DNA of 64,000 nt from Nonlabens antarcticus (GTDB lineage: Bacteria > Bacteroidota > Bacteroidia > Flavobacteriales > Flavobacteriaceae), in NCBI RefSeq assembly GCF_015356755.1, contig NZ_JADFCO010000057.1:1-64000 (forward strand), given 5' to 3'. A program made the translations under genes and the position numbers. The notes beneath the pieces were generated by a model. That model did not search any database. It had not been told where the DNA came from and was given only the letters and a program-made list of their open reading frames with translations. This document shows, piece after piece, positions 2,375-63,181 of this stretch (within the stretch, counting starts at the first letter, position 1; each line of letters opens with the position of its first letter).

Positions 2375-2992
2375 TTAGAATAAACCAAATAGAAAGATTA
2401 TTGAATTAATGACAGAAAAGAAAGTTAGCTACAAAAATCCCATTGAGAATCTATAAGATAGATGTGTTTCATAAATGGATTCAACACTGTAATTTATGAA
2501 CGTTCAGTTGCACTCAGATATACTTGACAGTATAATCTTAGTGTGCTTTATAAGTACTCAAATTAGTTAGCTTTCGCGCAAGCGAAAAGACGTTATTCCT
2601 ATGCCAATAATTTTAGTTGCTATAAACTCTTATTGGTTGACTTTTTAATAGTGAGTATCTTAAGTAAAGCTCGAGAATCGACTGGCTGTGTCGACAATCC
2701 AATTTGATTGCTTTTTTTGGACTAAACGCAGTAATTGATATTTTTTTACTAATGATAAATCGTAAATCTGCATCTATCTCATTAGGAGTTTCTGCAACTA
2801 AAATTAGTTCTATTCGTTAGCTATTTTCCTCCAATTATCAATAAACCTATTTTATTCAATTAATATTGCTTCAAAGAAGTCTAGAAGAAATTGAGAACGA
2901 GAAAAAAAATAGTTCAAATCTGCATAGAGTCTTTTGATTAAATTCAACGGGTAATCTTATTTTAGGAGCTTGTAACTAACTAACAGAAACTT
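2375..2992. other. Intergenic region upstream of the MFS transporter
   Basis: About 600 AT-rich bases without a supportable gene. It holds one degenerate copy of the dispersed palindrome at 2570-2587 (GCTTTCGCGCAAGCGAAA; one changed base in the centre). No clear -7 element is seen before the downstream gene. Confidence 0.5.
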
Positions 2993-4327
2993 ATGAGCAT
3001 GAATCTAAAACCTCAAAATAATCTAATCCCGGTATTGATTATTGCTGGACTATTTTTCATTTTCGGTTTTGTAACTTGGATCAATGGGGCTCTTATCCCG
3101 TTTATGAAAACGATCAATGAACTTACGGAGACACAATCATATCTAGTAGCATCTGCTTCCTATATTTCATTTGTAGTTATGGCGTTACCCGCTTCATATA
3201 TTTTGAATAAAATAGGATATCGTAAGGGAATGTCTCTAGGGTTATTCGTCATGGCAGTGGGAGCTTTGATTTTTATTCCTGCTGCGGAAGCTAGAACATA
3301 CTGGGTGTTTTTAGCTGGAATATTCATTCAAGGAATGGGGATGACTATTTTACAAACAGCCGCTAATCCATATATTACCATACTAGGGCCTATTGAAAGT
3401 GGTGCAAAACGTATTGCAATAATGGGAATTGCAAATAAAACAGCTGGGGCGTTGGGGTCTTTAGTTTTTGGTGCCATACTTCTTTCTGGTATTGATGCTG
3501 TTCAAGAACAGCTTACAACGGCCTCAGAATCGGAAAAAACGTTGCTGTTAGATACCATGGCAGATAGTGTTTTCATACCATATATAATTATGGCATTTGT
3601 TCTGGCAATATTAGGAATACTTATCAGGAAGGCTCCTCTTCCACATGTAGAGCCTATTGCATTAGAGGAAGTTAATAATGGAACCACGACTAAAAAGTCA
3701 ATATTTCAATTCCCACATTTATGGTTGGGTGTTTTGGCTTTATTCGTTTACGTTGGTGCAGAAGTGATCGCTGGTGATACCATAATCTCCTACGGCATAT
3801 CTTTAGGAATCCCGGCTACGGAAGCAAAGTTCTTCACCACGTACACCTTGATGGCAATGGTTGCTACTTATGCTGTAGGTGTATTTTTAATACCGAAATA
3901 TGTGAAGCAAAAAACGGCATTAATTGCTAGTGCGCTTTTAGGGATTGTCTTCAGTATTTTGGTTCTTTCCACAACAGGGTTTACATCGGTATTATTTGTT
4001 GCTGCTTTGGGAATTGCAAATGCATTAGTCTGGCCAGCGATATGGCCATTGACCTTAGATGGTCTTGGTAGACATACTAAAACAGCGTCTGCGCTATTAA
4101 TCATGGCTATTTCTGGAGGAGCGATAATACCGCCATTGTATGGTAGAATAGTGGATAGTAATAGGCTCGATTTAATAAATTCCGGCGTTAACGATGCAGC
4201 ATCCGTCGGGAGTGCTTCCACAGATGGTTATTGGATTTTGATTCCATGTTATTTAATCATTCTGTTTTTTGCAGTATGGGGACACAAAATGAAAGGTACT
4301 CAAAGGAAATCTCAAGTTAATTATTAG
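2993..4327 (+). CDS. MFS sugar permease, FucP/glucose-galactose transporter type
   Basis: 444-residue inner-membrane protein with about twelve hydrophobic segments. The N-terminal LFFIFGFVTWINGALIPF and the stretch GMGMTILQTAANPYI are typical of the FucP-like branch of the major facilitator superfamily, whose members import fucose, glucose, galactose or related sugars with protons. NPY in that stretch belongs to the sugar-porter signature of this branch. The substrate cannot be read from the sequence. Start ATG at 2993 with a second ATG six bases on; neither has a good Shine-Dalgarno. It stands alone between two intergenic gaps, with a bidirectional terminator downstream at 4501. Confidence 0.85.
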   Translation: MSMNLKPQNNLIPVLIIAGLFFIFGFVTWINGALIPFMKTINELTETQSYLVASASYISFVVMALPASYILNKIGYRKGMSLGLFVMAVGALIFIPAAEARTYWVFLAGIFIQGMGMTILQTAANPYITILGPIESGAKRIAIMGIANKTAGALGSLVFGAILLSGIDAVQEQLTTASESEKTLLLDTMADSVFIPYIIMAFVLAILGILIRKAPLPHVEPIALEEVNNGTTTKKSIFQFPHLWLGVLALFVYVGAEVIAGDTIISYGISLGIPATEAKFFTTYTLMAMVATYAVGVFLIPKYVKQKTALIASALLGIVFSILVLSTTGFTSVLFVAALGIANALVWPAIWPLTLDGLGRHTKTASALLIMAISGGAIIPPLYGRIVDSNRLDLINSGVNDAASVGSASTDGYWILIPCYLIILFFAVWGHKMKGTQRKSQVNY

Positions 4328-4500
4328 AAGAGTTAACTGATAAAGAGAGTTCACGTCGTTTCGAATCCTAATGAAATTAATAGTTATCGAATGCAATTGG
4401 CCCAAACCTGGTTGGAGTAAAACTTAAAGACTCAGAAAATTTAACTTAGCTATTTTAAAATAACTCAACTTCCATACTTAACTAAAAAACTAAATAAAAA

Positions 4501-4530
4501 AAAGCTCAAGAATTCTCATTCTTGAGCTTT
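4501..4530. terminator. Bidirectional terminator between MFS gene and glyA
   Basis: A 13-bp stem AAAGCTCAAGAAT/ATTCTTGAGCTTT with a 4-base loop, with A-run before and T-run after, so it can end both the plus-strand transporter transcript and the minus-strand glyA transcript. Confidence 0.85.
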
Positions 4531-4670
4531 TTTAGATAGTTAACTAAACTAAATTAGTTGACGTGTTTTCTCAGTTTCATAAGTGAGCTAACGATTTAGA
4601 CCGACGTTTAAATTACTGTTTTTTAAAATAATCTCAAGGTTAAATCGCAGCGTTCTCGTATTAATTGTCA

Positions 4671-5945: not shown

Positions 5946-5963
5946 TTGTGATAAATTTAAATA

Positions 5964-5971: not shown

Positions 5972-6004
5972 CATTACAAGACCTATGTTAGTATGAAGGA
6001 ATGA

Positions 6005-6012: not shown

Positions 6013-6044
6013 ATCATTACTTTTTAACAACCTAAAAACGACTC

Positions 6045-7363: not shown

Positions 7364-7379
7364 CGCTTTCGCGAAAGCG
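7364..7379. repeat. Dispersed palindrome copy (intergenic)
   Basis: Perfect CGCTTTCGCGAAAGCG, 14 bases after the fumarylacetoacetase stop codon. Without a T-run it is not a typical terminator. Confidence 0.9.
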
Positions 7380-10621: not shown

Positions 10622-12634
10622 ATGATACGATATATTGCAGTAATTCTGATAGTTTGTTTCGCTTTCGCGAAAGCGAACTCTTCCATCTTACAAAGCTATG
10701 AGCGACATAAGGTTGAACAAGGCGACACTATTTATAAGATCGTAAATAAATATAATATTACAGCAGAACAGTTGATGGAACTCAACCCAGATCTTAAAAT
10801 GGGTTTAAAGTCAGGAGCTGTTTTATTGATTCCTAAGTCTAATAAAATCCTTACAACCAGAACTGTCGAACGGTACGAAGTTCACAAAGTAAATCGTAAG
10901 GAAACTCTCTACACTCTTGCTAAAGAGTACGGTGTGACGGTTATGGATATTAAGGAGGCCAATAAAAAGCTGTATTCAGAATCCTTGCAAAAAGGAGATA
11001 AAATTCAGATTCCAGTTTTTTCACCTTCATCTTATTCTAATGTTTCAGACATAGGTTCTTCTCCTAATCAAAAGGATTTGCCACCGGGAAAATACAGAGT
11101 TGAGAAATCTGAAGGCAGGTATAGGGTAGCAAAAAAGCACAACATTTCAATCGACATATTAAATGATCTCAATCGAGATGTGGACGAGTTGAAGGAGGGA
11201 ATGGTATTAAATGTTCCTTATGAATTAGAGGAATCTATAAAACCGGTAATCATCGCACCAGTTAAAAAAGATAAGGAACCAGTTGTTAAATCTAAGGAAA
11301 CGACTAAAGAAGATAAGAATACAAATCCCGATGGGAAGTACAGGGAATATGAGGTGCCAGCCAAAATGACCATGTACAGCCTGAAAAAAATGACAGGACT
11401 TTCTAAAGATGCATTAGAGGATTTGAATCCAGAACTTAAGGAAGGTGTGCGATCAGGAATGATTTTACGTTTACCTGTAAATGTTGTGAAGGAAAATGAC
11501 AGGTATTTAGTATCGAACAAATCAGCAAAGTATGCACGACTGGTAGACAGTATACGCAACTACAAGAATCAGCGCATTGCCGTCATGTTGCCATTTTCTG
11601 CTAGGGGCGCTTCAAATGGGAATTATAGTGAATTGCTAAAAGGAAGCCGCACCGTAAGAATTGCTACTGACTTTTATAGTGGGATGATGATTGCTAGAGA
11701 CTCTGCAAGAACATTGGGGATAACTGTAGATTATGACATATACGATACAGGTAATAATGAAAATACATCTGTAGGAATAATTAAGAACAATGACTTTAAG
11801 AAATACAACAGTGTTATAGGTCCATTAATGGCAAAAAATGTAACAGCAGTCGCTAGGGAGCTGAGGGATGATGATATTCCTGTAGTGTCCCCATTGACTA
11901 ATGTATCTTTTGGCAATTCAGAAAACAGACTCTATAAGAATTTATTTCAAGCGCGTCCAGATGATAAATTTTTAATGGAGCGTCTTAAAAATTACTTGAT
12001 AGGATTTGCTAAAGGAAAAAATGTAATTATAGTAACAGATAATACGGAGCCAGGATTGAAACAACAATTTGCGCCACTGTTCCCTAATGCTAAAATTCTT
12101 TATCCAGATAAAAAAAATTATATATCTAGTAGCAAATACACGGGAGCATTAAGTAAAGAACAAAAAAACGTCGTTATTCTTGCGGCAAATCACATTACCT
12201 TTTTAACTGGTGCCGTATCTAATTATGCTGCCAAAGCAAGGTCTTATGATATCACCATGGTGGGAATGAATGATTATGATAATGTGAGTATTAATAATAT
12301 GAGCCTCGCTGCGGTAAATTACACGTTTCCTAAAATGAACCGCAATACAAGTAGTGAGAATGTTTTTGCGAGTCATTACTTTAAAAAACATGGAATCACA
12401 CCTAGTGAGTTTGCTACAAGAGGGTTTGATGTTACTATGGATGTTATCTTACGCCAGGCAAGTGCAGACAATTTATATGAAAGCGCTATGCGCAATGGTA
12501 AAACGATAATGGTTGAAAACAGTTTTGAATATAACAAGAGATTCTTTGCTGGTTTTTATAACGAAGCCAGTTATATTTTAAGATTCAAGCCAGACTTGAG
12601 TATTGAAGAAGTTGAAGACTATCAAAAAAACTAA
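10622..12634 (+). CDS. Secreted LysM-repeat protein with a periplasmic-binding-protein-like C terminus
   Basis: 670 residues. The N-terminal signal peptide MIRYIAVILIVCFAFAKANS ends in an AKA signal-peptidase I site that is written by a copy of the dispersed palindrome (10660-10675). Four LysM modules follow, near residues 20-65, 85-135, 155-200 and 235-280, each with a YxxLN/DL core and ending in an IP/VP/LP pair, so it should bind peptidoglycan. The C-terminal 330 residues resemble a type 1 periplasmic-binding (amino-acid ABC receptor, PBP1/LpoA-like) fold: IAVMLPFSARG, YDTGNN, VIGPLMAKNVTAVAREL. No transporter genes are adjacent, so it is probably a cell-wall or envelope factor and not a nutrient receptor. 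Starts two bases after guaA. Confidence 0.8.
   Translation: MIRYIAVILIVCFAFAKANSSILQSYERHKVEQGDTIYKIVNKYNITAEQLMELNPDLKMGLKSGAVLLIPKSNKILTTRTVERYEVHKVNRKETLYTLAKEYGVTVMDIKEANKKLYSESLQKGDKIQIPVFSPSSYSNVSDIGSSPNQKDLPPGKYRVEKSEGRYRVAKKHNISIDILNDLNRDVDELKEGMVLNVPYELEESIKPVIIAPVKKDKEPVVKSKETTKEDKNTNPDGKYREYEVPAKMTMYSLKKMTGLSKDALEDLNPELKEGVRSGMILRLPVNVVKENDRYLVSNKSAKYARLVDSIRNYKNQRIAVMLPFSARGASNGNYSELLKGSRTVRIATDFYSGMMIARDSARTLGITVDYDIYDTGNNENTSVGIIKNNDFKKYNSVIGPLMAKNVTAVARELRDDDIPVVSPLTNVSFGNSENRLYKNLFQARPDDKFLMERLKNYLIGFAKGKNVIIVTDNTEPGLKQQFAPLFPNAKILYPDKKNYISSSKYTGALSKEQKNVVILAANHITFLTGAVSNYAAKARSYDITMVGMNDYDNVSINNMSLAAVNYTFPKMNRNTSSENVFASHYFKKHGITPSEFATRGFDVTMDVILRQASADNLYESAMRNGKTIMVENSFEYNKRFFAGFYNEASYILRFKPDLSIEEVEDYQKN
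10660..10675. repeat. Dispersed palindrome copy (coding, signal peptide)
   Basis: Perfect CGCTTTCGCGAAAGCG inside the LysM gene, translated as FAFAKA at the end of the signal peptide. Confidence 0.9.
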
Positions 12635-14870: not shown

Positions 14871-14886
14871 CGCTTTCGCGAAAGCG
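14871..14886. repeat. Dispersed palindrome copy (intergenic)
   Basis: Perfect CGCTTTCGCGAAAGCG six bases after the pyrG stop codon. Confidence 0.9.
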
Positions 14887-17460: not shown

Positions 17461-18533
17461 ATAATAAATTTGCAGTAATTATGGCTGGCGGTGTGGGATC
17501 CCGTTTCTGGCCTGTCAGCAAACAGTCCTTCCCAAAGCAATTCCACGACATGCTGGGTCTGGGAAGTTCTTTGTTACAGATTACTTTTGACCGCTTAAAG
17601 AAACAGGTTCCTGCAGATCAAATTTTAATTCTTACAAACACAGACTACATCCACCTGGTCAAAGAACAGTTGCCTGAGGTAATGATAGAAAATATAGTGG
17701 CAGAACCAGCGATGCGCAATACCGCTCCCTGCATTTTATTAGCTGCCTTAAAAATTCAAAAAAGAATTCCTAGTGCCATTATGATTGTTGCTCCTAGCGA
17801 CACTTTTGTGGAAAATGATGATCAATTTCAGCAAGATCTCACAACGGCTTTTCAGTATTGTGAACAGCATCCAGAATCATTAATGACAATGGGTGTGGAG
17901 CCAGATTCTCCCAACACAGGTTTTGGATATATTGAATACATAGCTTCTGATAGTACGGTAAAAAAGGTAAATCAATTCCGTGAAAAGCCGGATTTTGAAA
18001 CGGCAAAAAAATATGTCGATGCGGGAAATTTCTTGTGGAATTCTGGAACTTTTATCTGGTCAGTGGATGCTGTAGTTTCTGCTTTCGCGAAAGCGGAACC
18101 AGAGTTATATAAGCTGTTTATTAACGGAGTTAAATTTTACAATGAACCTGGAGAAAAAATATTCCTAGCGGAAAATTATCCAAAAGCTAAAAATATTTCT
18201 ATTGATTATGCCATTATGGAACGCAGCACTCATGTGTATGTTTTGCCAGTAGATTTTGGGTGGAATGACGTAGGAACATGGGGTAGCCTTTATGAAAGAC
18301 TCGACAAAGATCAACAAGAGAATGCGGTAGTTAATGCAGATCTAAGTTCAGAAACTTCCAGCGGGAATATGATACGTACAGCGAAGGGAAAAAAAGTAAT
18401 CATCAAAGACTTAAACGATTATATCATCGTTGATGAAGATGATGTTTTGATGATTATACCTAAAACGGCAGATCAAGATATTAAGGATATAAGAAATGAG
18501 GCGATGAATAAATATGGTAATTTGATAGGCTAA
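17457..18533 (+). CDS. manC: Mannose-1-phosphate guanylyltransferase
   Basis: 358-residue nucleotidyltransferase that makes GDP-mannose from mannose-1-phosphate and GTP for polysaccharides or glycoproteins. It has the signature FAVIMAGGVGSRFWPVSKQSFPKQF at the N terminus, the EPAMRNTAPCI segment, FREKPD and NSGTFIW. It lacks the C-terminal isomerase domain of long ManC proteins, so it is monofunctional. The ATG at 17457 overlaps the SprT-like gene; a second ATG at 17445 is possible. A palindrome copy at 18081-18094 encodes SAFAKA between two helices. The stop TAA overlaps the next ATG (TAATG). Confidence 0.92.
   Translation: MNNKFAVIMAGGVGSRFWPVSKQSFPKQFHDMLGLGSSLLQITFDRLKKQVPADQILILTNTDYIHLVKEQLPEVMIENIVAEPAMRNTAPCILLAALKIQKRIPSAIMIVAPSDTFVENDDQFQQDLTTAFQYCEQHPESLMTMGVEPDSPNTGFGYIEYIASDSTVKKVNQFREKPDFETAKKYVDAGNFLWNSGTFIWSVDAVVSAFAKAEPELYKLFINGVKFYNEPGEKIFLAENYPKAKNISIDYAIMERSTHVYVLPVDFGWNDVGTWGSLYERLDKDQQENAVVNADLSSETSSGNMIRTAKGKKVIIKDLNDYIIVDEDDVLMIIPKTADQDIKDIRNEAMNKYGNLIG
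18081..18094. repeat. Dispersed palindrome copy (coding)
   Basis: GCTTTCGCGAAAGC inside the guanylyltransferase gene, read as AFAKA. Confidence 0.88.
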
Positions 18534-21553: not shown

Positions 21554-23245
21554 ATGAAATCATATCCTTTTCTAATTTTCTTTTTTGCACTATTAATGGG
21601 GTGTAGTTCGCTTTCGCAAAAGCGGACTCAAAATGAGTCTATTGCGACTGGTAAACCAAATAAAGCATCGAATGAGACCTCTCTCAAAACACCTAAACTG
21701 GTAGTAGGAATCGTGGTTGATCAAATGAGATATGATTACCTAACTAGGTTTTATAACCGTTATGGAAATGATGGTTTTAAGAGATTGATGAATGAGGGTT
21801 TTAATGCTACAAACAATCATTATAATTATGTTCCCACTTACACCGCACCGGGCCATGCAAGTATTTATACTGGAGCAACACCCGCAGATCATGGAATAAT
21901 CGGTAATAACTGGTATGATAAATTTATCGATAAATCTATTTATAATGCAGATGATGCATCTGCAGATCCAGTGGGTACTACCAGCGATGAAGGGAAAATG
22001 TCACCCATTAATCTATTGAGCTCAACCGTAACAGATGAGTTGGAATTGTTCACACAAGGTCGTGCTAAAGTGATAGGTGTTTCTGTAAAAGATCGTGGCG
22101 CTATTCTTCCTGCTGGGCATGCTGCAGATGCTGCTTACTGGTTTAGAGGCAGTGATGAAGGTGTTTTTATTTCCAGTACTTTCTATATGAAACAACTCCC
22201 ACAATGGGTGGCCGACTTTAATAATTCAAAACCTGCTGAAAAGTATATTAAATTGTGGGAAACTCTTTATCCTTTATCTAGTTATACGTCAAGCGGTCCA
22301 GATTTGAATGAATATGAAAAAGGAATGCGTGGTAAAGAAACAGCTACCTTTCCTTACGACTTAAAGACGCTAGCTGATAAAAATGGTGGATACAGTTTAA
22401 TAAAAGCAACACCTTATGGTAATTCCATTGTAGCAGACTTTGCCATTAAAGCGCTTCAAGAAGAAAATATGGGTGTCGATGATATTCCAGACTTCCTTGC
22501 TGTCAGTTTTTCCAGTACAGATTATGTAGGACATAATTATGGAGTTAATTCTGTAGAGGTGGAAGATACTTACCTCAGGTTAGATCAAGATATCGCGCGA
22601 TTATTAAAAGCATTAGATGCCCAAGTAGGGGAAGGAAATTATACTGTTTTCTTGACAGCAGATCATGGGGCTGTTAATGTACCAGCCTATTTACAGGAAA
22701 AAAAATTTAATGCAGGATATTTTGATGAACGTAGCTTTATTAAAGATATGGATACCCTAATTACAACAAAATATGGTGTTTCAGGAATGATCAAAAATGT
22801 AAGTAATGACCAAGTATTTTTTGACCAGAAAGCATTGTCTAAAAACGAGATATCATTTAGCGAGATTCAAGAATTTGTTGCTAATGAAATGCGCAATTAT
22901 CCTGGTGTGGCTAAAGTTTTCACCAGAGAAGCTATGGTTTCTGCCCAGTTCACCACAGGAATGGCGGCATTAGTACAAAACGGATTTCACCACAAACGCA
23001 GCGGTGATGTGATATGGGTGTTAGAGCCTGGAGTAATTGTTTATTCTAAAACCGGTTCTACACACGGTAGCGCGCAGAGTTATGATACTCACGTTCCCCT
23101 GTTGTTTTATGGTTTTGGTATCAACAATGGCCAGACAGCAGATCGCACTGAAATTACAGATATCGCTCCCACAATATCTTCCTTATTGAAAATCAGCTTT
23201 CCAAATGCTGCTAAAGGCAATCCTATTACCAAAGTTTTAAAATAA
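21554..23245 (+). CDS. Alkaline-phosphatase-family lipoprotein, PafA type
   Basis: 563 residues. A lipoprotein signal peptide (MKSYPFLIFFFALLMGC) places the lipidated Cys at residue 17. The body is an alkaline phosphatase superfamily domain: VVGIVVDQMRYDYL supplies the first metal Asp, TYTAPGHASIYTGATPADHGI the nucleophile Thr, and SSTDYVGHNYG, LTADHGAV and a late His (GSTHGSAQSYDTHVP) the other metal ligands. This arrangement matches PafA, the calcium-activated periplasmic phosphomonoesterase of Bacteroidota. A degenerate palindrome copy encodes SSLSQKR directly after the lipobox. Start at 21554 is chosen because the earlier ATG (21527) would precede the promoter element and spoil the signal peptide. 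Confidence 0.9.
   Translation: MKSYPFLIFFFALLMGCSSLSQKRTQNESIATGKPNKASNETSLKTPKLVVGIVVDQMRYDYLTRFYNRYGNDGFKRLMNEGFNATNNHYNYVPTYTAPGHASIYTGATPADHGIIGNNWYDKFIDKSIYNADDASADPVGTTSDEGKMSPINLLSSTVTDELELFTQGRAKVIGVSVKDRGAILPAGHAADAAYWFRGSDEGVFISSTFYMKQLPQWVADFNNSKPAEKYIKLWETLYPLSSYTSSGPDLNEYEKGMRGKETATFPYDLKTLADKNGGYSLIKATPYGNSIVADFAIKALQEENMGVDDIPDFLAVSFSSTDYVGHNYGVNSVEVEDTYLRLDQDIARLLKALDAQVGEGNYTVFLTADHGAVNVPAYLQEKKFNAGYFDERSFIKDMDTLITTKYGVSGMIKNVSNDQVFFDQKALSKNEISFSEIQEFVANEMRNYPGVAKVFTREAMVSAQFTTGMAALVQNGFHHKRSGDVIWVLEPGVIVYSKTGSTHGSAQSYDTHVPLLFYGFGINNGQTADRTEITDIAPTISSLLKISFPNAAKGNPITKVLK
21609..21624. repeat. Dispersed palindrome copy, one base changed (coding)
   Basis: CGCTTTCGCAAAAGCG just behind the lipobox Cys of the phosphatase gene; one G to A change breaks the symmetry. 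Confidence 0.75.
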
Positions 23246-28297: not shown

Positions 28298-28313
28298 CGC
28301 TTTCGCGAAAGCG
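28298..28313. repeat. Dispersed palindrome copy (intergenic)
   Basis: Perfect CGCTTTCGCGAAAGCG upstream of the uvrD-type gene. The rest of 28251-28486 shows nothing else I can name. Confidence 0.9.
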
Positions 28314-35224: not shown

Positions 35225-35274
35225 AAAACTCTGTTTCAGAAACATTCTAAGAACTTTACAATTTAAACCAAGCT

Positions 35275-35288
35275 GCTTTCGCGAAAGC
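35275..35288. repeat. Dispersed palindrome copy (intergenic)
   Basis: GCTTTCGCGAAAGC between the LysR and acetyltransferase genes. Confidence 0.88.
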
Positions 35289-35409
35289 GACATAACAGGC
35301 AGATTTTCAACAAAAGAACCCTAAAAATTGAACTGTGTTGCGCTTTAAACTGCGAGAACAAATTGTGTTTTTAGGTATAAAATGCAGAAAACCTGAAATT
35401 ACTACAACC

Positions 35410-45125: not shown

Positions 45126-45141
45126 CGCTTTCGCGAAAGCG
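45126..45141. repeat. Dispersed palindrome copy (intergenic)
   Basis: Perfect CGCTTTCGCGAAAGCG between the dehydrogenase gene and the rplT terminator. Confidence 0.9.
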
Positions 45142-48857: not shown

Positions 48858-50372
48858 ATGAATGCGTTTTTAGGGAATCGCAATTCTGTCATGTTATTTA
48901 TAGCTGTGATTTTGTTCGCTTTCGCGAAAGCGAACTCTCAACAAGCTCCAGCAATACAGACAGATTCCACCTTTACAATTGATAAGCTGACAACCAGGGC
49001 TGATTTAATGAACTTGCTCAAAACTTTGAGGGAGGAATATCAACTTGAGGTAAAATTGACCGATTTCCAAAGCAGTGCAAGCCAGATCAATAGTCTAGGA
49101 CTGGAACTGAAAGGAAGTGACAATAGAACGATTGATTATCAAACGGCATCACTTAATGGGATTGATGGTATATGCATAGATCTTCTAGAACCAGGAACGG
49201 TGTCGTTTTTGGGATTATGCAGTACATCAAAAACGACAAAAAATGAATCCCAAACAGCTATAAATAAAGAAGTGAATTTTGAAGAAAAAGAAAGCCAGCA
49301 ACTGGTAAGTACTGATGATGCTGCATCAAAAAAAGATTTGGCCAGACAAGAAAGGTTATTAGAAATTACCGAATTACGTGAACAAGCTGATCAAAAAAAT
49401 ACAAAACGACTGGAAGAAATAGAAAATCAAAAAGCAGAAAAAACAACAGGTCAAATTCAAGTATTAGAGGTTCAAAAAGACCGTGTCATCAGCGATACTC
49501 AAACAATGAAAGCGCAACAAATCGCGATACGAGCAGAGTTGAAGCAACTTGAAAATGAGTCGAATCGCATCAAAAGAGAACGAAAAACACTGGATTACAA
49601 TAATTTGCGAGCCCTTGCCAAAAGAGATTCCCTAGAGCAACATCAAATAAGGCTTATAGAGATTATTGAAGAGGAAAATGCCCGTTTATTAGAAACAATC
49701 GCAGCTCAGGAAAAAGGACGGTCAGTCATAGAACGACAAAATAAAGTTATTGAAGAACAAGGTTTACGGGCAGAGACTGCCGAAGGAATTAAAGCCTATC
49801 GCACCGCAATAATGGGAGGTTCTAAAGATGAGGTGCTTAAAAAACAGGGATATCTATTTTTTGCGGCAGATCAATGTTCTTATAAGGTTTATGAGGGTTA
49901 TACCATCGTGTATAGCTTGCTGGGTAAAATGTTATTTACCATCAATAAGGAGTTGCTGGCCCCCACAGTAAATGGCACTTTAAATATCAAAGGCAAACCC
50001 TATGACTACCTATTTGCATCTAATTATTTAATCATCAAAAATGAGAAAGGTCAGATGGTGAATGAATATGGAGATTTACTCGATCGCTCATTTGAAACTA
50101 CCGCAGTCATACCGTTTGAAAAATCCCATGACTTTACCATTAAAAGTAAAACGAGCCCTAGGCAATTACTAGCGATTAAGACTGACATGAAAACCTTGGG
50201 AATTGAAATGGAAGTTTTTGAGCAATACCGCAATGAGAATGATATCATAATAGATTTAAGTTTTACTTTACAAGGAAAGGAGTACATCTTTCAGGATATC
50301 AACGGGATTTCAGATATCATTCTAGAAATTGACCAGCCCAATGATCAACTTAGGGTTTTAAGTAAAAGATAG
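48858..50372 (+). CDS. Secreted coiled-coil protein of unknown function
   Basis: 504 residues. The signal peptide (VMLFIAVILFAFAKANS) ends with an AKA site written by the dispersed palindrome (48917-48932). After a folded N-terminal piece (about 35-110) comes a long charged coiled coil (about 135-300) rich in Glu, Gln, Lys and Arg. The C-terminal 200 residues (YLFFAADQCSYKVYEGYTIVYSLLGKMLFTINKELL...) form a beta-rich region I do not recognise. Likely periplasmic. No operon partner; divergent from thrS. Confidence 0.7.
   Translation: MNAFLGNRNSVMLFIAVILFAFAKANSQQAPAIQTDSTFTIDKLTTRADLMNLLKTLREEYQLEVKLTDFQSSASQINSLGLELKGSDNRTIDYQTASLNGIDGICIDLLEPGTVSFLGLCSTSKTTKNESQTAINKEVNFEEKESQQLVSTDDAASKKDLARQERLLEITELREQADQKNTKRLEEIENQKAEKTTGQIQVLEVQKDRVISDTQTMKAQQIAIRAELKQLENESNRIKRERKTLDYNNLRALAKRDSLEQHQIRLIEIIEEENARLLETIAAQEKGRSVIERQNKVIEEQGLRAETAEGIKAYRTAIMGGSKDEVLKKQGYLFFAADQCSYKVYEGYTIVYSLLGKMLFTINKELLAPTVNGTLNIKGKPYDYLFASNYLIIKNEKGQMVNEYGDLLDRSFETTAVIPFEKSHDFTIKSKTSPRQLLAIKTDMKTLGIEMEVFEQYRNENDIIIDLSFTLQGKEYIFQDINGISDIILEIDQPNDQLRVLSKR
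48917..48932. repeat. Dispersed palindrome copy (coding, signal peptide)
   Basis: CGCTTTCGCGAAAGCG; here the symmetry extends three further bases on each side to 22 bp (48914-48935). Translated as FAFAKA. Confidence 0.92.
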
Positions 50373-51728: not shown

Positions 51729-54700
51729 ATGGAAGAAATCCTCTCGTACCTATTGAAAAGCGCCGGCGTCCTTAGCATCTTCGCCCTTATTTATCATTTC
51801 CTACTGCGCCGTTTGACCTTTTTCAAGGCAAACCGTTGGTTTTTACTATTTGGCATGCTGGCAAGTATCGCATTTCCTTTGATTGAAATCACGCAAACCG
51901 TCTATATAGAGCGTCCAGAAACGGTCGTGTCACCACAGCAAATCCTATCGCCCATGGCTTATGTATTGCAGGAATCCATTGCAGAGCCGCTCATCAATTT
52001 TAGCCAAGTGTTGCTGTTACTTTACGTATCGATCAGCCTATTTTTTCTGGGTAAAATGGTGGTGGAATTGCTGTCTTTGCGCCGTTTGATCAACTCTGGA
52101 AAAAGAAGGAGGGAAGATGGGTTTGTGAGAATATCGCTTTCGCGAAAGGTAACTCCATTCAGTTTCTTTAATTATATCTGTTTTTATGAAAAAGAAGAGA
52201 ACACCGCTGCTACACAATTGATCTTCAAACACGAGCAAGTTCATGCTCGCGAGTGGCACAGCGTTGACTTATTACTTACTCATATTTATTGTGCGGTATT
52301 CTGGATGAATCCGATGGCGTGGTTGCTCAAACGACAGATAGGTGAGAACCTAGAATTTATAGCAGATGCGACTGCCAAAGTTGAAAACACCAGCGGCATA
52401 AGCTACGAACGTACCCTACTATCCAGCGCCGCCAGCCACATGCAACCAGCACTGGCCAATAATTTTTTCACCCCATTCATTAAAAAAAGAATCCAAATGC
52501 TTCAAAAAGAAACCTCAAAAAAGTGGAACGCCTACAAATATGCGCTCATACTACCGGTCATTGTTTTGTTCCTGTATAGTTTTAATACGGTGACTAAGAC
52601 GGAATATGTTAAGAGTAAAATAGAGCCAGAAATGTTTGTTGACTCGATGACTCTAGAAAATGCCGACTCTAGCGAGCGTTTAGAGTTTGATATAACGTCA
52701 GAAACATCAAAAGCAGAATTAGCTTCCTATACTAAACTTATTAATCGCTTTGCTAGCTATAATATAATCATCAACCGAATTGTGATAGATGGAAAACCCA
52801 TGACATCGATTAGCGTGGATTTTAAAAATGCAGATGATGACGGCTCTCAAAGCAATTACCCGCAAGAAATGGATATCAAACTGTCCGTCTCTAAGGACGA
52901 ACTTTCTATAATTGATGAAAAGAGTGGTTCCATCCAAAGTATAACTAAAGCTGGTTTATCATTAAAAGAGGTAACTAAAGAGTTTGATATTTCATCAACC
53001 ACATCAAATACAGATCTTGAAGCCTACGTCAAGCAAATCAATGATTTTGCAAATTATGAAATCAAACTTGAAAAAGTCAAGGATGAAAAAGGAGCCATAA
53101 GCCTATCTGTATCTGCAGCTTTTGACATTAATGGTTTTAATAGAACAATTAAACTGCCTATTTCAAACACAAAAAGCGCATTGATTTTATTAAAGGTTTC
53201 TAAGGATACATTAAGAATTAATGATGATACTTCTCACGATACATATCAGATGGATAAAACTTCTGGTGTGAAAATGACTAGTGAGGACTGGACTTACAAT
53301 TCTGTAAAAAAAGCAAGCACAACTGTTGACCAGGTTCGCTTTACGATCTCGCCTACAACCACACAAGAAAGCTTTGACCGTATGACAAAACAGCTAAAAG
53401 AAGACCACAATGTGGATCTAAAAATCAGCAACCTACAATACAACGACGGGAAAATTGTTAGAATTAAGATCGAATTAGACGACAATCGCGGATTTAAAAC
53501 CTCCCAAAATTTAAAAAGTAGCGAACCAATAGATCCTATTTGTATTAAAGGAATTATCGAGGAGAATAAAAAAAGTTGGAGTATGGGGAATTGTGATGAT
53601 ATACGCGTTTCTCTGAATAGTTCTGACGAGAAAATGAACGCCATTTTTGGAAGTATCCAAGATCTCGATTTGACAAAAATGAAGTTGACGATTAGCGAAA
53701 AAGAAATGAGTTCTTTGAAAAAAACGCTCCGTGATTTGCAATCCGACCTCTCAAAATTTAATAGTGATGAGATAAGTGAGGATTTAAAAGTAAGATTAGC
53801 AGAAGCCGAAAAAAAATTGAGTTCCCTAAACATGGATTCATTGCAACGTGTTTTAGGTAAGGCGACAACGAACCTACAGCTCAGTCTAAATAAGATGCAG
53901 CGGGATTCCATGATGTTCGGTAATTCTAGCGTGACTTATTCATCGGGCAATGCAACATTCACTTCAATTGATTCCATTAAATACGATTTAAATAATCTAG
54001 ATGCTTCTGAGCCTCAAGTTTTTGGTAATCGATTCTCTGATAGAACTCAACCACTCTTTATTTTAAACGGAGTAGAAACAAAACAAGGAATTGTTGAGAA
54101 ATTAAATCCAACCCATATCGAATCAGTTAGTGTCTTGAAGGATGAGTCGGCTACTTCATTATATGGTGGTAAAGGAAAAAATGGAGTGGTAATTTTAACT
54201 ACTAAAGTTAACCTTGAAACCTATCCAGATGCATTGTATGTTATTAATGGTAAGTCGGTAAACAAGGGTGTTTTTTCAAAAATGAAACCAGAAACATTGG
54301 AGTCGGTACGGATATTAAAAGGTGAAAAGGCCACCTCGCTCTGGGGGGAAAAGGGCAAAAATGGTGTTATTGTAGTGACGACTAAAGCGGATAAGTATAT
54401 TTCCAACAAGAATAAGAAGAGGGTGGAGAGTATTTATTCTCGCAGGAATAAAACGAAGGATTCTTTAATAGGAACTATAAAACAAAATGGGGATAGTCTC
54501 AAGAAGAATTATGAAGAAAGAAGAGAACAGCTTAAATCCCAAAGAGAAGAAATAAAAAATGAGAGGATGAGTGCTTATGAAGAAAGAAAGCAGGAATCAG
54601 AGTCTCAAACCTATTCTAAATCAGCTTCATCATCATTTATTTCTACAACAGTTGGTCCTTTTGCAGTTACATTGAAAGATTTTAATGAGGAGGATCTATT

Positions 54701-55614: not shown

Positions 55615-56420
55615 TGGCGGTTGAAATCACAGATCAATGCGGTAGAATCGTTCGTTTATCATCAAGTCCCCAACGTATTATCACGCTGGTTCCCTCGCAA
55701 ACCGAGCTGCTGTACGATCTAGGATTGGAAGATAAGATTGTGGGCGTTACCAGGTTTTGCGTTCATCCAGAACGGGCGGTAAAAGAAAAAAGGGTCGTGG
55801 GAGGAACAAAGAAGATTGTTGAAAAACGAATCAAAGAGCTTCAGCCTGACCTTATCATTTGCAATAAAGAGGAAAACACAAAGCAGATCGTGGATTTCTG
55901 TGAATCTATTGCGTCTACCTATGTTTCTGATATTTCAACATTAGAAGATTCACTAGAAATGATTGAGCAGGTGGGAACACTAACGCAAACCAGAAAGCAG
56001 GCGGACGAAATTACGGCGAAAATCAAATTGGCTTTTCAAGATCTTCCAAACCCAAAACTTAAAAATCGAGCATTATACCTAATCTGGAAAGATCCTTATA
56101 TGAGTGTTGGAAACGATACGTTTATTCATAATATGCTGGAAAAGGCAGGGTTTGATAACGTTTTGAAAAATCAAACTCGCTACCCTCAGCTCAATATTCA
56201 AGAGGTTCTCAATCTGGCGCCAGATGTAATATTACTATCGTCAGAGCCTTATAATTTTAAAGTTGAAGATGGGATGGAGCTCTGTTCCGCTTTCGCGAAA
56301 GCGAACAAAAAACAGCCTGTATGTACAATAGTTGATGGCGAGATTTTTTCATGGTACGGCAGCAGGTTGCTAAAAACACCAGATTATCTCATCGAGTTGA
56401 ATAAGAGAACAGGGACCTGA
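55614..56420 (+). CDS. BtuF-like helical-backbone metal/cobalamin-binding protein without signal peptide
   Basis: 268 residues with the fold of class III substrate-binding proteins: RIVRLSSSPQRIITLVPSQTELLYDLGLEDKIVGVTRFCVHP, KRIKELQPDLIICNKEENTK, and the C-terminal lobe LNLAPDVILLSSEPYNF. It resembles BtuF and other vitamin B12 or siderophore-binding proteins. There is no signal peptide or lipobox: the protein starts MAVEITDQCGR, so it appears cytoplasmic unless the true start differs; an upstream start is excluded because the preceding gene overlaps. A palindrome copy encodes SAFAKAN (56288-56303). No permease or ATPase gene is adjacent. Confidence 0.85.
   Translation: MAVEITDQCGRIVRLSSSPQRIITLVPSQTELLYDLGLEDKIVGVTRFCVHPERAVKEKRVVGGTKKIVEKRIKELQPDLIICNKEENTKQIVDFCESIASTYVSDISTLEDSLEMIEQVGTLTQTRKQADEITAKIKLAFQDLPNPKLKNRALYLIWKDPYMSVGNDTFIHNMLEKAGFDNVLKNQTRYPQLNIQEVLNLAPDVILLSSEPYNFKVEDGMELCSAFAKANKKQPVCTIVDGEIFSWYGSRLLKTPDYLIELNKRTGT
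56288..56303. repeat. Dispersed palindrome copy (coding)
   Basis: Perfect CGCTTTCGCGAAAGCG in the BtuF-like gene, read as AFAKA. Confidence 0.9.
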
Positions 56421-57125: not shown

Positions 57126-57566
57126 ATGGAAAGTAAGGTAGAACAATTTCTTACGGCTGCAGAAGAGCAGCAAGTTGTAGATAGCATTCGTGCTTCAGAA
57201 AAGCTTACCAGTGGCGAGATACGCGTTCACCTGGAGAGTGATTGTGAGGGCGATGTCTATGATCGTGCGCAAGAAATCTTTCACCTGCTTAAAATGGATA
57301 ATACAAAACAGGCTAACGGCGTTCTTTTCTATCTAGCGATCGATGCACGCAAATTTGCCGTGTTGGGCGATACGGGAATTCACGCTCACGTGGGCGATGG
57401 ATTCTGGAACAGCATTAAAGATGTTATGGAAGTCCGCTTTCGCGAAAGCGAGTTTAAAAGTGGTCTAGTTGCAGGAATACAAATGGCGGGAGAAAAACTT
57501 GCGGTACATTTTCCATGGGATAATGACGATGTAAACGAATTACCAGACCAGATAACGACCAGTTGA
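57126..57566 (+). CDS. TPM-domain protein, soluble
   Basis: 146 residues, no signal peptide. LTAAEEQQVVDSIRASEKLTSGEIRVHLE and KQANGVLFYLAIDARKFAVLGDTGIHAHVGDGFW are the TPM (TLP18.3/Psb32/MOLO-1) fold. A palindrome copy encodes VRFRESE (57435-57450). Second gene of the LemA-TPM-TPM operon; its stop TGA overlaps the TTG start of the third gene. Relatives in plants work in photosystem II repair; the bacterial role is unknown. Confidence 0.9.
   Translation: MESKVEQFLTAAEEQQVVDSIRASEKLTSGEIRVHLESDCEGDVYDRAQEIFHLLKMDNTKQANGVLFYLAIDARKFAVLGDTGIHAHVGDGFWNSIKDVMEVRFRESEFKSGLVAGIQMAGEKLAVHFPWDNDDVNELPDQITTS
57435..57450. repeat. Dispersed palindrome copy (coding)
   Basis: Perfect CGCTTTCGCGAAAGCG in the soluble TPM gene, read as RFRES. 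Confidence 0.9.
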
Positions 57567-59520: not shown

Positions 59521-59599
59521 ACTCTCACATCTTGTTTCCTCCATCGGAGGAAATGCCGAAGGCAAAGGAGGCCAGCGCGAGAGTGATTGTTTTTATTTT

Positions 59600-60553: not shown

Positions 60554-60592
60554 AAAACGCTGGAAAAACTTCATTCGTTTTTCCAGCGTTTT
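60554..60592. terminator. Terminator downstream of the sigma factor unit
   Basis: A perfect 16-bp stem AAAACGCTGGAAAAAC/GTTTTTCCAGCGTTTT with a 7-base loop and A- and T-runs at both sides. Lies 20 bases after the stop of the minus-strand membrane gene. Confidence 0.88.
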
Positions 60593-60611
60593 CTTATAGG
60601 TCTTAAAAACC

Positions 60612-61253: not shown

Positions 61254-61255
61254 AG

Positions 61256-61756
61256 TTATGGATTTATAATATTTGTTAATTTCGTTTTGATCCTGTTCAT
61301 CTTCACTCGGGCATTTACCTCGCTTATTCCTAGCGTTTCCGCTATTTCACGATAATTTTTATCTTCCAGATATAGAAAGACTAATGCCTTTTCAATATCA
61401 TTCAGCTGTTTTACGGCACCGTAAAGCAATGTGAGCTGCTCCATGGTTTCGTCATTTTCAGTAGTGTCTTCAATCTTGAATTCTACCGTTTCATAGCGCT
61501 GGGTGGGAACCCGGCGTTTAGACTTACGATATAAAGTAATTGCCGTATTTAACGCAACCCGATACATCCATGTTGAAAACTTAGAATCGCCCCTAAATTT
61601 GGGGTAAGCCTTCCACAGTTGTATGGTAACTTCTTGAAACAGATCATTGTGCGCATCTTGGTTGTCTGTATAAAGTCTACAGATCTTATGGACAATATTC
61701 TGATTTGCTTCTAGCTGTTCGACAAATTCTTTTTCGAGATTTGAACTCACTGGCAT
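61256..61756 (-). CDS. RNA polymerase ECF-type sigma factor
   Basis: 166 residues. Region 2 (about 20-85) with IVHKICRLYTDNQDAHNDLFQEVTIQLWKAYPKFRGDSKFSTWMYRVALNTAITLYRK and region 4 (about 108-160) with LNDIEKALVFLYLEDKNYREIAETLGISEVNARVKMNRIK are standard for sigma-70 ECF factors. ATG at 61756. Followed by a membrane protein gene that may control it. The regulon is unknown. On the minus strand upstream, AATTTTTG is one base from the -7 consensus. Confidence 0.92.
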   Translation of the reverse strand: MPVSSNLEKEFVEQLEANQNIVHKICRLYTDNQDAHNDLFQEVTIQLWKAYPKFRGDSKFSTWMYRVALNTAITLYRKSKRRVPTQRYETVEFKIEDTTENDETMEQLTLLYGAVKQLNDIEKALVFLYLEDKNYREIAETLGISEVNARVKMNRIKTKLTNIINP

Positions 61757-61870
61757 GGTTTGGTTAAAAGATTAGTGTCAAAAATTATCATGGCGTTACA
61801 AGGTTAAGAAAAGATTGTTAAGCCTCCGTTGATATTAGTGTACTTGCCTTAATTTTAAAAAAAAACCAAC

Positions 61871-63181
61871 ATGCAGCTTCCCGCCAGTCAGAATCCAAGA
61901 GTCGTTATTATAGGTGGTGGTTTTGGTGGAGTTTCGCTTTCGCGAAAGCTAACAGAACACAAATTTCAGGTCGTATTAATAGATCGGCACAATTATCACA
62001 CCTTCCAGCCCTTATTATATCAAGTAGCTACCAGCGGTCTTGAGCCAGATTCCATCGCATTTCCATTGCGCAGTATCGTTGATGAAACACACGATTACTT
62101 ATTCCGTCTAGCGGAAGTGGAGCGTGTCAACCTCGCAGAAAACTCAATTACTACAAGCATAGGTGATATCGATTATGATTATTTAATCGTTGCCACGGGA
62201 ACAAAAACGAACTACTTTGGGAATAAGAAAATTGAACACAACGCCTTACCCATGAAAACGGTGCCACAGTCACTGGACATACGTAGCTTGATGCTGCAAA
62301 ATCTAGAAAAGGCAACGATAACAGACGATGTCAATGAGCAGCAAAAACTCATGCGCATTGTCATTTCTGGCGCTGGCCCAACGGGAGTAGAACTCTCAGG
62401 TGCTTTTGCGGAGTTTAAAAAGGGTGTGATTAAGAACGATTATCCTGATTTAAATGCAGATTTTATGGAAATCCATTTACTGGACGGTGCAGATAGAGTA
62501 TTGCCACCATTTAGTGAAACGGCTTCTAAAAAAGCAGAAAAATATTTGAGGAAACTGGGTGTTCAGATTCATTTAAACGAACTGGTAACCGATTATGAAA
62601 ACGAAACCGTAATCACAAAAAGCGGTATGAAGCTGGAAACAGGAACCTTTATCTGGAGTGCTGGTGTGACAGGTAATTGTCCAGAAGGGTTTCATGATTT
62701 ATCAATTGCGGGAAGATCGGGACGTTTACACGTGGACGAGTTCAATAGAGTAAAGGAAACTAAAAATGTTTTTGCGATAGGTGATATTGCATTGATGAAG
62801 ACTGAGGAGTTTCCTGATGGTCACCCACAGGTGGCTCAACCGGCCATCCAACAAGGAAACCATCTCGCCAAAAACTTAATCCGCATGATTCAGGATAAGG
62901 AGATGAAACCATTTTCTTATTTTGATAAGGGTTCTATGGCCACAGTCGGCAGAAATAAAGCGGTAGCAGATATTGGCAAATTTACCTTAGGCGGTTTCCC
63001 GGCCTGGTTTGCGTGGTTAGCTGTTCATTTATATTTTCTGGTAGGAGTCCGCAATAGGATTGTAGTATTTCTTAACTGGACCTACAATTATTTCAATTTT
63101 GACCGTGCAGCGCGATTGATTATCAGACCTTACAGCAAGAAGATTGAGGTACCTGAAACGGTAAGCGAAATCCAAGAATGA
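61871..63181 (+). CDS. ndh: Type II NADH dehydrogenase
   Basis: 436-residue FAD-dependent, non-proton-pumping NADH:quinone oxidoreductase. FAD-binding VVIIGGGFGGVSLSRKL, then HNYHTFQPLLYQVATSGLEPDSIAFPLR, NAD-binding IVISGAGPTGVELSGAFAEF, the second FAD site NVFAIGDIALM and the quinone-site-like AQPAIQQGNHLAKNL are present. The C-terminal amphipathic part (FAWLAVHLYFLVGVRNRI) anchors it to the membrane. A palindrome copy (61935-61949) encodes SLSRK of the first Rossmann helix. ATG at 61871, monocistronic. Confidence 0.93.
   Translation: MQLPASQNPRVVIIGGGFGGVSLSRKLTEHKFQVVLIDRHNYHTFQPLLYQVATSGLEPDSIAFPLRSIVDETHDYLFRLAEVERVNLAENSITTSIGDIDYDYLIVATGTKTNYFGNKKIEHNALPMKTVPQSLDIRSLMLQNLEKATITDDVNEQQKLMRIVISGAGPTGVELSGAFAEFKKGVIKNDYPDLNADFMEIHLLDGADRVLPPFSETASKKAEKYLRKLGVQIHLNELVTDYENETVITKSGMKLETGTFIWSAGVTGNCPEGFHDLSIAGRSGRLHVDEFNRVKETKNVFAIGDIALMKTEEFPDGHPQVAQPAIQQGNHLAKNLIRMIQDKEMKPFSYFDKGSMATVGRNKAVADIGKFTLGGFPAWFAWLAVHLYFLVGVRNRIVVFLNWTYNYFNFDRAARLIIRPYSKKIEVPETVSEIQE
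61935..61949. repeat. Dispersed palindrome copy, 15 of 16 bases (coding)
   Basis: CGCTTTCGCGAAAGC in the NADH dehydrogenase gene, read as LSRK in the FAD-binding helix. Confidence 0.85.

Follow-up and report, generated by a model that had tools for sequence, protein, structure and literature searches.

A palindrome placed every few kilobases along Nonlabens chromosomes, a candidate self-recognition signal

The 14-bp palindrome GCTTTCGCGAAAGC occurs 611 times in the genome of Nonlabens antarcticus and its reversed control 0 times, confirming the genome-wide excess on which the initial annotation had made its reading depend. Selection or conversion at the DNA level maintains the copies, which hold fixed positions. 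Their spacing, through genes and between them, points to putative cellular machinery that would read the chromosome at intervals of a few kilobases. We tentatively interpret the palindrome as a self-recognition signal that may work like DNA uptake sequences, with a chromosome-organising site as the main rival.

The palindrome in the window

In the window, the whole 64-kb stretch of DNA analysed, exact CTTTCGCGAAAG is present at 14 places and with one mismatch at two more (2571 and 21611), while dinucleotide shuffles of the window gave a mean of 0.14 places and never reached 16. The full 14-mer occurs 13 times, the copy at 52135 being without the outer C, and no other palindromic 12-mer was found more than once in the window. 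The 14 intact copies of the initial annotation were thus all recovered. Of its three damaged copies (2570, 21609 and 41801), the first two are real near-copies, with 1 of 14 letters changed, where control palindromes average 0.0 such places. The third has 3 of 14 letters changed and is indistinguishable from chance, because the window has five places that divergent and control palindromes average 1.4. Of the 14 exact copies, ATG-started ORFs contain 8, or 9 with one TTG-started ORF included, and not the ten in-gene copies claimed. The proposed spacing of about 4 kb agrees with the window mean of 4.2 kb, and the copies are more evenly spaced than random (CV 0.345 vs 0.90, P 0.0002). The copies are listed below, with conservation counted over the alignable ones among 20 genomes compared.

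7364..7379, no strand: exact 16-mer CGCTTTCGCGAAAGCG; intergenic, ahead of a bshC-like gene at 7423; exact in 5/6 aligned genomes, 14/20 not alignable
10660..10675, no strand: exact 16-mer; directly 3' of a gene that by eye looks like guaA, at the beginning of an ORF for a LysM protein with uncertain start codon; exact in 18/18 alignable, 2/20 not alignable
14871..14886, no strand: exact 16-mer; flanked by pyrG and a gene resembling yidC by eye; exact in 14/16 alignable, 4/20 not alignable
18080..18095, no strand: exact 14-mer, outer base T; within a nucleotidyl-transferase gene, read AFAKA; exact in 10/11 alignable, the eleventh with one mismatch, 9/20 not alignable
24277..24292, no strand: exact 16-mer; within a TTG-started ORF, intergenic by ATG-started ORFs; exact in 1/1 alignable, 19/20 not alignable
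28298..28313, no strand: exact 16-mer; intergenic
35274..35289, no strand: exact 14-mer; intergenic
39183..39198, no strand: exact 16-mer; within an M1-peptidase-like gene
45126..45141, no strand: exact 16-mer; intergenic
48917..48932, no strand: exact 16-mer; within a gene, in a stretch resembling a signal peptide by eye (FAFAKANSQ)
52135..52150, no strand: exact 12-mer, outer bases changed (CGCTTTCGCGAAAGGT); within a gene
56288..56303, no strand: exact 16-mer; within a periplasmic-binding-protein gene
57435..57450, no strand: exact 16-mer; within a TPM-domain gene
61935..61950, no strand: exact 14-mer, outer base T; within an NADH-dehydrogenase-like gene (label by eye)
2569..2584, no strand: near-copy, 2/16 changed (1/14); intergenic
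21609..21624, no strand: near-copy, 1/14 changed; exact in 5/10 alignable relatives, 10/20 not alignable

Abundance and distribution

All 23 Nonlabens genomes searched, including that of N. antarcticus, contained 288-857 copies of the 14-mer. Beyond the genus, only 2 of 397 genomes of the family were dense, representing two other Flavobacteriaceae genera with similar density, and no other dense genome was found among 296 of the class. Non-dense genomes had few copies, often clustered on mobile-looking islands. Copies with one mismatch are rare compared with exact ones; 480 kb of genome G004 hold 120 exact, 14 one-mismatch and 8 two-mismatch places.

Of 133 copies, 58 are intergenic where 11% of bases are intergenic, a four-fold excess. 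Gene orientation around the 57 intergenic copies with both neighbours known was 17 ++, 16 --, 13 divergent and 11 convergent. The 75 in-gene copies are distributed 45/21/9 over the reading frames. Since in-gene copies occur in all three frames and the C-poor arms described below are kept in genes on both sides of the core, selection acts on DNA and not on peptide, as the initial annotation had argued.

On the 3.19-Mb chromosome of G004 (terminus not mapped), all 20 evenly placed 20-kb stretches hold 2-7 copies, and two more, picked from within gaps, have none. Besides the chromosome, copies are found on some integrated or temperate elements, and some phage contigs have 2-3 copies each. Nonlabens phage P12024S, 30 of the 35.7 kb of phage P12024L and a 29-kb plasmid contig contain no copy.

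Structure of the site

The site is larger than the 14-mer. The fixed 14-bp palindromic core is joined by a core-adjacent C and, on the 5' side in each strand, by an arm of ~15 nt that is poor in C and rich in G/T; the whole spans about 50 bp, and the arms are present in coding DNA as well. The C fraction in the 15 nt 5' of the core is 0.085/0.089 in coding and 0.057 in intergenic DNA, compared with a local coding background of about 0.20-0.22. The 3' flank is A-rich and G-poor with no T-run. No left-right pairing of the arms was found beyond position 9; the arms vary independently and therefore do not form a long hairpin. Two separate dense lineages (on a tree built from one protein, PyrG, by a quick method) share the arm pattern, as do elements (r 0.76-0.80), and position 9 is clade-specific, T in Nonlabens and A in G242 and G226. 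Between G012 and G003, identity is 0.82-0.86 within 30 bases of the core and 0.85-0.89 further out. A mismatch comparison gave 204:23 vs 74:29 (P 7e-5), in which copies in related elements and in orthologous pyrG regions are not independent.

Spacing of the copies

Gaps between copies are mostly 3-6 kb and close pairs are avoided. Among 50 listed of the 611 copies of N. antarcticus, on contigs C54-C58, 0 of 45 gaps were shorter than 1 kb, compared with 7.4 expected, which 0 of 10,000 random sets matched. Such gaps numbered 0 vs 7.8 expected in G226 and 5 vs 18.2 expected in G004. The 37 copies on contigs C55, C56 and C57 had CVs of 0.19-0.40 vs 0.83-0.91 at random (P 0.0004 or less). Even spacing was also found in G012 (CV 0.374, gaps between 3.1 and 12 kb, an evenness that none of 10,000 random sets reached) and in 60 kb of G242 (CV 0.43, P 0.0004), and the values for G004 and G003 were 0.915 (P 0.25) and 0.727 (P 0.09). 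Pooled, the five contigs showed no excess of evenness over random by CV (1.30 vs 1.08; 0.51 leaving out the one large gap) because contig C58 has a 53-kb stretch without copies. Among the DNA of dense genomes, empty stretches of 20-53 kb exist.

Conservation and origin of the copies

Copies occupy the same orthologous places across the genus Nonlabens, and of 21 sites that could be aligned between two 88% identical genomes, 20 are exact. The initial annotation had proposed comparing orthologues for insertion or substitution, and two lineage-specific copies were tested in this way, that of G015 at N. antarcticus position 8332 and that of G018 at 12362, both in N. antarcticus ORFs. Relatives align gap-free in 5 of 9 and 5 of 15 cases, respectively, and the others have gaps of at most 5 bases; therefore, no insertion of 14 bp or longer is seen at either copy. 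Judging from these alignments, copies arise by substitution and stay in place, contrary to the small mobile palindrome included among the roles in the initial annotation. The rest of that list (segregation or nucleoid protein, uptake signal, HIP1-like site) still contains the live options. No steady rise in identity towards the sites, as a trace of conversion, was found in three genome pairs. Farther than 2.5 kb from a shared site, two of the three pairs were somewhat less alike (0.849 vs 0.87-0.89 and 0.837 vs 0.84-0.87), and the third showed no difference.

A possible DNA-uptake-like signal

Long genome-wide signals this strong have been described in very few bacteria (uptake sequences, HIP1, Chi and nucleoid sites). 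Our search of open-licence papers found none in Bacteroidota and no paper containing the 12-mer, and among the papers listed for shorter words none dealt with such a repeat. The palindrome resembles the DUS of Neisseriaceae and the USS of Pasteurellaceae, which are likewise long exact motifs of very high genome-wide excess, in genes and between them, and limited to certain lineages. DUS and USS have dialect letters, and USS flanks matter beyond the core, to which the dialect-like letters and the flank constraint seen here correspond. However, the present palindrome is perfect, has symmetric arms, is several times sparser and avoids close pairs, and to our knowledge known uptake sequences are not palindromic. 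For DUS and USS, over-representation drops steeply with mismatch load (PMC1939737), a fall also seen in G004.

Because the core is symmetric and the arms are independent, a dimeric (two-fold) protein probably reads the core in double-stranded DNA, and it may then act on, bend or open the flanks. As the least certain step, the site would act as an uptake sequence: a transformation system lacking a type IV pilus would have a receptor, on the surface or in the periplasm, that binds any few-kb fragment carrying one copy. Biased uptake would keep copies exact, spread them to about one per useful fragment and add them to long-resident chromosomal DNA; plasmids, lytic phages and recently acquired stretches would remain free of them.

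This uptake reading, which we consider possible though not probable, is consistent with the lineage-confined, highly over-represented long motif, the dominance of exact over mismatched copies, the emergence of new copies without insertion, the four-fold intergenic excess without preferred gene orientation and the dialect-like position-9 letter on a shared arm pattern. The avoidance of close pairs is expected if one copy per fragment suffices, the empty 20-53 kb stretches are as for newly gained DNA, and the two phages and the plasmid contig fit as well. However, the 2-3 copies on some phage contigs are not required by a pure uptake signal, and identity does not rise steadily towards sites between species. 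The platform protein in the inner membrane of type IV pili and type II secretion (PF00482), which would be expected by analogy with DUS and USS, was not found in N. antarcticus (G000). Of the 6 other dense genomes searched, 5 (G012, G019, G022, G242 and G226) also lack it, and G004 has it in a stretch poor in the motif. The non-dense G080 and G364 carry it too. No report of competence in Nonlabens was found in print. Riemerella columbina, a flavobacterium, shows a preference for self DNA in transformation, and k-mer counting in that study yielded only low-complexity words (PMC7965970). If uptake is its role, the palindrome would serve a group of bacteria in which transformation has been seen to favour self DNA with no sequence known for it (PMC7965970).

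Alternative explanations

The main rival, which we regard as somewhat unlikely, is a chromosome-organising site. A nucleoid, segregation or division-control protein that is abundant in the cell and was acquired by some lineages would bind the palindrome every few kb for bridging, looping, anchoring or nucleoid occlusion, with selection for even spacing. Metric spacing where sites exist (C55-C57, G012 and G242), deep positional conservation, the presence of copies in all 20 G004 stretches and two independent half-sites suggestive of a dimer are consistent with this, as are the integrated elements that carry copies and the plasmid and two phages that do not. However, the chromosome tolerates long stretches without sites (53 kb on C58), the five pooled contigs are not more even by CV, and G004 (P 0.25) and G003 (P 0.09) are not significantly so. 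The sites of Noc (NBS), parS, SlmA and MatP are also palindromes of 14-16 bp bound by dimeric chromosome proteins; in contrast, the copies here number hundreds chromosome-wide, and no extra ParB/Noc-type protein tracks the dense genomes. A search with PF02195 for a second ParB-family protein gave one match each in G004, G012, G022, G242 and G226, which are 5 of the 7 dense genomes, and in 12 of 13 non-dense ones; G000 has three matches and G019 two (the extras about 600 aa), and the non-dense G180 also has an extra. An extra ParB was therefore rejected as the putative reader. A parS/MatP reading was rejected since copies are not confined to the origin or terminus region in the sampled G004 chromosome, and occlusion of the Noc/SlmA type since the 20 stretches, with the terminus not mapped, revealed no terminus-proximal domain or gap without sites. 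We know of no nucleoid protein that reads a strict 14-mer with arms lacking C in 15 successive places. Another reading, which we find rather doubtful, is a chromosome ruler in which a horizontally gained reader would impose a near-metric lattice of ~50-bp two-fold-symmetric landing sites at 3-6 kb over most of the chromosome. Resident DNA, including temperate phages and integrated islands, would evolve sites over time, recent gains would appear as gaps, and lineages without the reader would let sites decay. A chromosome lattice would offer a case, open to testing, in which DNA itself encodes near-regular spacing, and a ruler machine, whether it served to pack, repair or license resident DNA, would have no counterpart among the described classes of genome-wide signals.

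A two-way Chi-type recombination or repair signal, at which a helicase-nuclease would stop from either side and load RecA on the G/T-rich arm, is unlikely. The E. coli Chi density is close to one per 4-5 kb, similar to that of the palindrome, and like Chi the copies lie in genes with a G/T-rich strand adjoining the site. The C-poor tract is present on each strand in coding and intergenic DNA, and the arms are conserved between species in composition rather than letter by letter, which fits a loading tract and not a contact. However, known Chi sites are short and non-palindromic, identity does not rise steadily towards the sites, a general enzyme would not explain a 14-bp motif in only a few genera, and RecC (PF04257) was found in 0 of the 20 genomes searched, dense or not, and so does not track the motif. 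Even less probable is a HIP1-like methylation site, in which an orphan methyltransferase would modify a sequence within the palindrome, which contains the palindromic TCGCGA, and linked repair or conversion would keep the long form abundant. HIP1 (GCGATCGC) of cyanobacteria is also an abundant palindrome located in genes as well as between them. Its site is 8 bp, whereas the present one has a 14-bp core with constraint over about 50 bp and, at one per 4-5 kb, is sparser. Nor are the inner words over-used outside the motif: 544 kb of Nonlabens has 100 TCGCGA vs 105.0 expected, neither avoided nor over-used, for which a restriction-site reading was also rejected, and 776 CGCG vs 1005 expected, a word also low in other Flavobacteriaceae. 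HIP1 is linked to methyltransferases (PMC4390886). A mobile or hairpin element (a REP/MITE-like repeat or bidirectional terminator) is largely refuted and extremely improbable: the perfect palindrome and intergenic excess would suit it, but 75 of 133 copies are in genes, intergenic copies have no convergent preference, two lineage-specific copies show no insertion and the arms are unpaired beyond position 9. An intrinsic terminator was rejected on the mostly genic location, the even contexts and the A-rich, G-poor 3' flank without a T-run.

Near-copies in non-dense genomes

Places with at most two mismatches numbered 74 in G364, 86 in G180 and 92 in G352 (controls 10, 20 and 16, respectively). 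Decayed sites are one possible origin. This reading is weakened because C at position 8 is present in 8 of 20 half-sites (by eye) of 10 exact copies from G364 and G352, vs about 0.88 in dense genomes, and several of the G364 and G352 copies resemble coding AFAKA-type words; the G352 places are unlikely to be relics. No dense sister palindrome was found in other Flavobacteriaceae, and in 233 kb of Aquimarina, TTTGCGCAAA showed a weak excess, with 8 found vs 0.24 expected.

Copy number and lineage range

Within the window, the 12-mer CTTTCGCGAAAG was present as 14 exact and two one-mismatch copies, and shuffled sequences gave 0.14. The 14-mer GCTTTCGCGAAAGC was found 611 times in the whole N. 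antarcticus genome (3.27 Mb), whereas its letter-reversed control was found 0 times, and 288 to 857 copies were present in each of the 23 Nonlabens genomes searched (N. antarcticus included). The excess that the initial annotation had noticed in the window thus holds genome-wide and extends through the genus. The same search detected no copy in any of 16 other genomes of the family and order.

Across 397 genomes of the family (N. antarcticus included), 80 carried the 14-mer, but dense populations were confined to Nonlabens and two genomes of other genera, G226 (genus g205, 408 copies) and G242 (genus g221, 857 copies); the remainder had at most 19 copies. In a class-wide sample of 296 genomes with completeness of at least 90%, N. 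antarcticus included, 16 had a copy, with no more than four each except in N. antarcticus itself. The palindrome TTTGCGCAAA, which is sparse yet resembles the Nonlabens core, occurred eight times in 233 kb of Aquimarina loci (L127-L130, L132, L133, L135-L137, L141, and L201), where 0.24 were expected.

The PyrG protein encoded in the window had N. ulvanivorans PyrG as its best named match (85% identity), and the PyrG tree placed N. antarcticus among Nonlabens. On this tree, which is based on a single gene and a quick method with SH-aLRT supports, G226 and G242 clustered with genus g159 (support 96), adjoining Aquimarina (support 85) and apart from Nonlabens, so that the dense state occurs in at least two lineages on that tree. 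It was either gained sideways or is ancient and was lost in most lineages. It should be noted that the G226 PyrG (L252, 595 aa) has an extra stretch within its open frame, and its match is interrupted near query residues 413-421.

Shape of the site

The flanks of 167 pooled copies, numbered from the palindrome centre, showed C at position 8 (0.87), T at 9-11, A at 12, T at 20, and G at 22-23, with C scarce from position 11 to about 25 and both strands alike. In 68 copies well inside genes, the share of C was 0.085 in the sense-strand 5' arm and 0.089 in the opposite arm read on its own strand, compared with 0.20-0.22 in neighbouring coding DNA; in the arms of 54 intergenic copies it was 0.057. 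Information profiles were alike in Nonlabens, in G242 and G226 together, and in the elements (r 0.76-0.80). Position 9 was clade-specific, being T in Nonlabens and A in G242 and G226, and its commonest letter was C in five of six island sets and A in the sixth. Left and right letters within a copy were independent except at position 9 (z 4.6), with a contrary value of -2.7 at position 17. This independence rules out a long hairpin and indicates that the site consists of two half-sites.

Spacing and placement

The usual gap between copies was 3-6 kb in all sets examined, and close pairs were scarce throughout. In the five listed N. antarcticus contigs none of 45 gaps was below 1 kb (7.4 expected), and among the matches listed there were five such gaps in the first 94 chromosomal copies of the Nonlabens genome G004 (18.2 expected) and none in the first 58 copies of G226 (7.8 expected). 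The sites are therefore regular where present, with long empty stretches between.

Table. Gap CV between neighbouring copies.
N. antarcticus, three contigs: 0.19-0.40; random 0.83-0.91; P 0.0004 or less
N. antarcticus, contig C54 (4 copies): 0.45; P 0.24
N. antarcticus, contig C58 (9 copies): 1.40
N. antarcticus, five listed contigs pooled: 1.30; random 1.08; 0.51 without the 53-kb gap
Nonlabens G012: 0.374; 0 of 10,000 random sets as even
Nonlabens G017: 0.624; P 0.02
Nonlabens G003: 0.727; P 0.09
Nonlabens G004 (first 94 chromosomal copies among the matches listed): 0.915; P 0.25
G242 (60 kb): 0.43; P 0.0004
G226 (first 58 copies among the matches listed): 0.717; P 0.004

The high value for C58 is due to a 53-kb stretch without an exact copy (G000:C58:45586-98869), which is possibly newly gained DNA.

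The window and 480 kb of G004 together contained 133 copies, 75 of them within ORFs and 58 intergenic, while coding sequence made up 88.8% of bases. Tandem, divergent, and convergent neighbours were alike around the intergenic copies, and this placement argued against a terminator. The in-gene copies were divided 45/21/9 among the frames, with frame 0 reading AFAKA, and by eye some AFAKA-frame copies lay in signal peptides. The copies at 48917-48932 of the window and L205:7433 read FAFAKA/SAFAKA near the N-terminus of seemingly exported proteins, and the cost of the motif seems low in such stretches. Sampled at 20 regular intervals, the complete chromosome of G004 gave 93 copies, two to seven per stretch, and the variance among stretches was below random only at P 0.06.

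Conservation and origin of copies

The 480 kb of G004 contained 120 exact, 14 one-mismatch, and eight two-mismatch copies; in 78 other named loci (1.49 Mb) the corresponding counts were 0, 0, and three. Near-copies were more plentiful in the dense genera outside Nonlabens (33, 11, and six copies in G242; 29, 13, and 12 in G226).

Around pyrG, copy 10661 was exact in all 18 alignable genomes (two of 20 could not be aligned), copy 14872 in 14 of 16, copy 18081 in 10 of 11, and copy 21610 in only five of 10. Alignable copies were exact in 20 of 21 cases between G012 and G003 (88% identity), 12 of 15 between G012 and G017, and 11 of 15 between G003 and G017. At two lineage-specific copies, in G015 (N. 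antarcticus position 8332) and G018 (position 12362), five of nine and five of 15 relatives aligned without gaps and the rest with gaps of at most five bases. Comparison of orthologues, which the initial annotation had suggested for separating insertion from substitution, thus points to small changes in place at both copies and speaks against one of its candidate roles, a small mobile palindrome.

Islands, phages, and a plasmid

Several low counts in non-dense genera were clusters. All 16 copies of G112 lay inside 78 kb of a single contig; 11 of the 19 in G322 lay inside 62 kb of one contig and seven inside 32 kb of another; the 12 of 17 in G087 that were among the matches listed shared one contig; and five of seven in G430 lay inside 10 kb. 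Scattered single copies were found instead in G364 (six), G352 (four), and most of the nine in G180. A pair of copies 933 bp apart recurred in G137, G114, G251, G123, G109, G112, and G322; in G114 both fell in a copper/heavy-metal island, inside a gene whose product resembles an outer-membrane channel (labels by eye). Damage was commoner in island copies (74 exact and 29 one-mismatch) than in Nonlabens stretches (204 and 23), although copies are not independent.

Nine phage-contig stretches (6.5-15 kb) among the matches listed in a viral scan had two to three copies each, but these contigs were picked by the motif itself, so the frequency in phages cannot be inferred from them. Ten proteins from six of these stretches belonged to terminase, portal, head, or tail families or to no named family, with one phage transposase. 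P12024S (35.7 kb) and the 30 of 35.7 kb examined of P12024L, two Nonlabens phages that we take to be lytic, had no copy; no integrase was found among the annotated names of P12024S. The 29.2-kb plasmid contig of G008, which encodes a replication initiator (42%-identical relatives are so annotated), also had no copy.

Candidate roles

The palindrome is a two-fold-symmetric recognition site with arms that acts at the DNA level, is fixed in place, and avoids close pairs. A dimeric protein acting on double-stranded DNA would be its reader. A restriction site, a mobile repeat, a parS/MatP or Noc-like distribution, and a pilus-based uptake machine were tested and did not fit. We tentatively place first an uptake-like signal of self-recognition, because its signature is the closest known match to the exact copies, the dialect letters, the density of one per few kb, the empty stretches, and the lack of copies in two phages and a plasmid, and because a published report describes a flavobacterium that favours its own DNA in transformation (PMC7965970).

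A chromosome-organising site, ranked second, is less likely. The C-poor arms of the palindrome, which conserve composition and not letters between species, also fit a two-way Chi-like site, which is ranked third and is less likely still; RecBCD-Chi itself was tested and rejected. The order of these three readings, with uptake-like self-recognition leading, is a matter of judgement. In searches of the open-licence literature, neither the 12-mer (full text), nor a Nonlabens paper on a palindrome like this one, nor uptake sequences in Bacteroidetes were found.

Gene content of selected regions

ParB-domain proteins of ~600 aa were observed besides the normal 300-aa ParB (G000:C66:20190, G000:C60:5491, G019:C1:1269093, and G180:C2:302059), and their presence does not track the motif. 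A motif-poor stretch of G004 encodes a two-domain T2SSF (PilC/GspF) protein (L321/L326, G004:C4:331387-332361); among 20 genomes searched, such proteins were found outside G004 only in G080 and G364.

By eye, and with two empty G004 stretches read, an acidic Asp/Tyr-rich protein was seemingly common to a motif-poor stretch of the G004 chromosome (L312:1046-1993) and the G112 island (L276:18860-19771), which suggests possible transfer of this element family between Nonlabens and further genera. The G112 island (L274-L278, G112:C3:20001-120000) is large and mobile-looking, with copper/heavy-metal genes (by eye). It encodes a Strawberry-notch-type helicase (1419 aa), an N6-methylase-like protein, a Zot/A32-type ATPase, and a serine recombinase whose gene is close to an ftsZ-like gene (the latter by eye). 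Four further genes of the island form a putative Wadjet (JetABCD) system, judging from their order and sizes.
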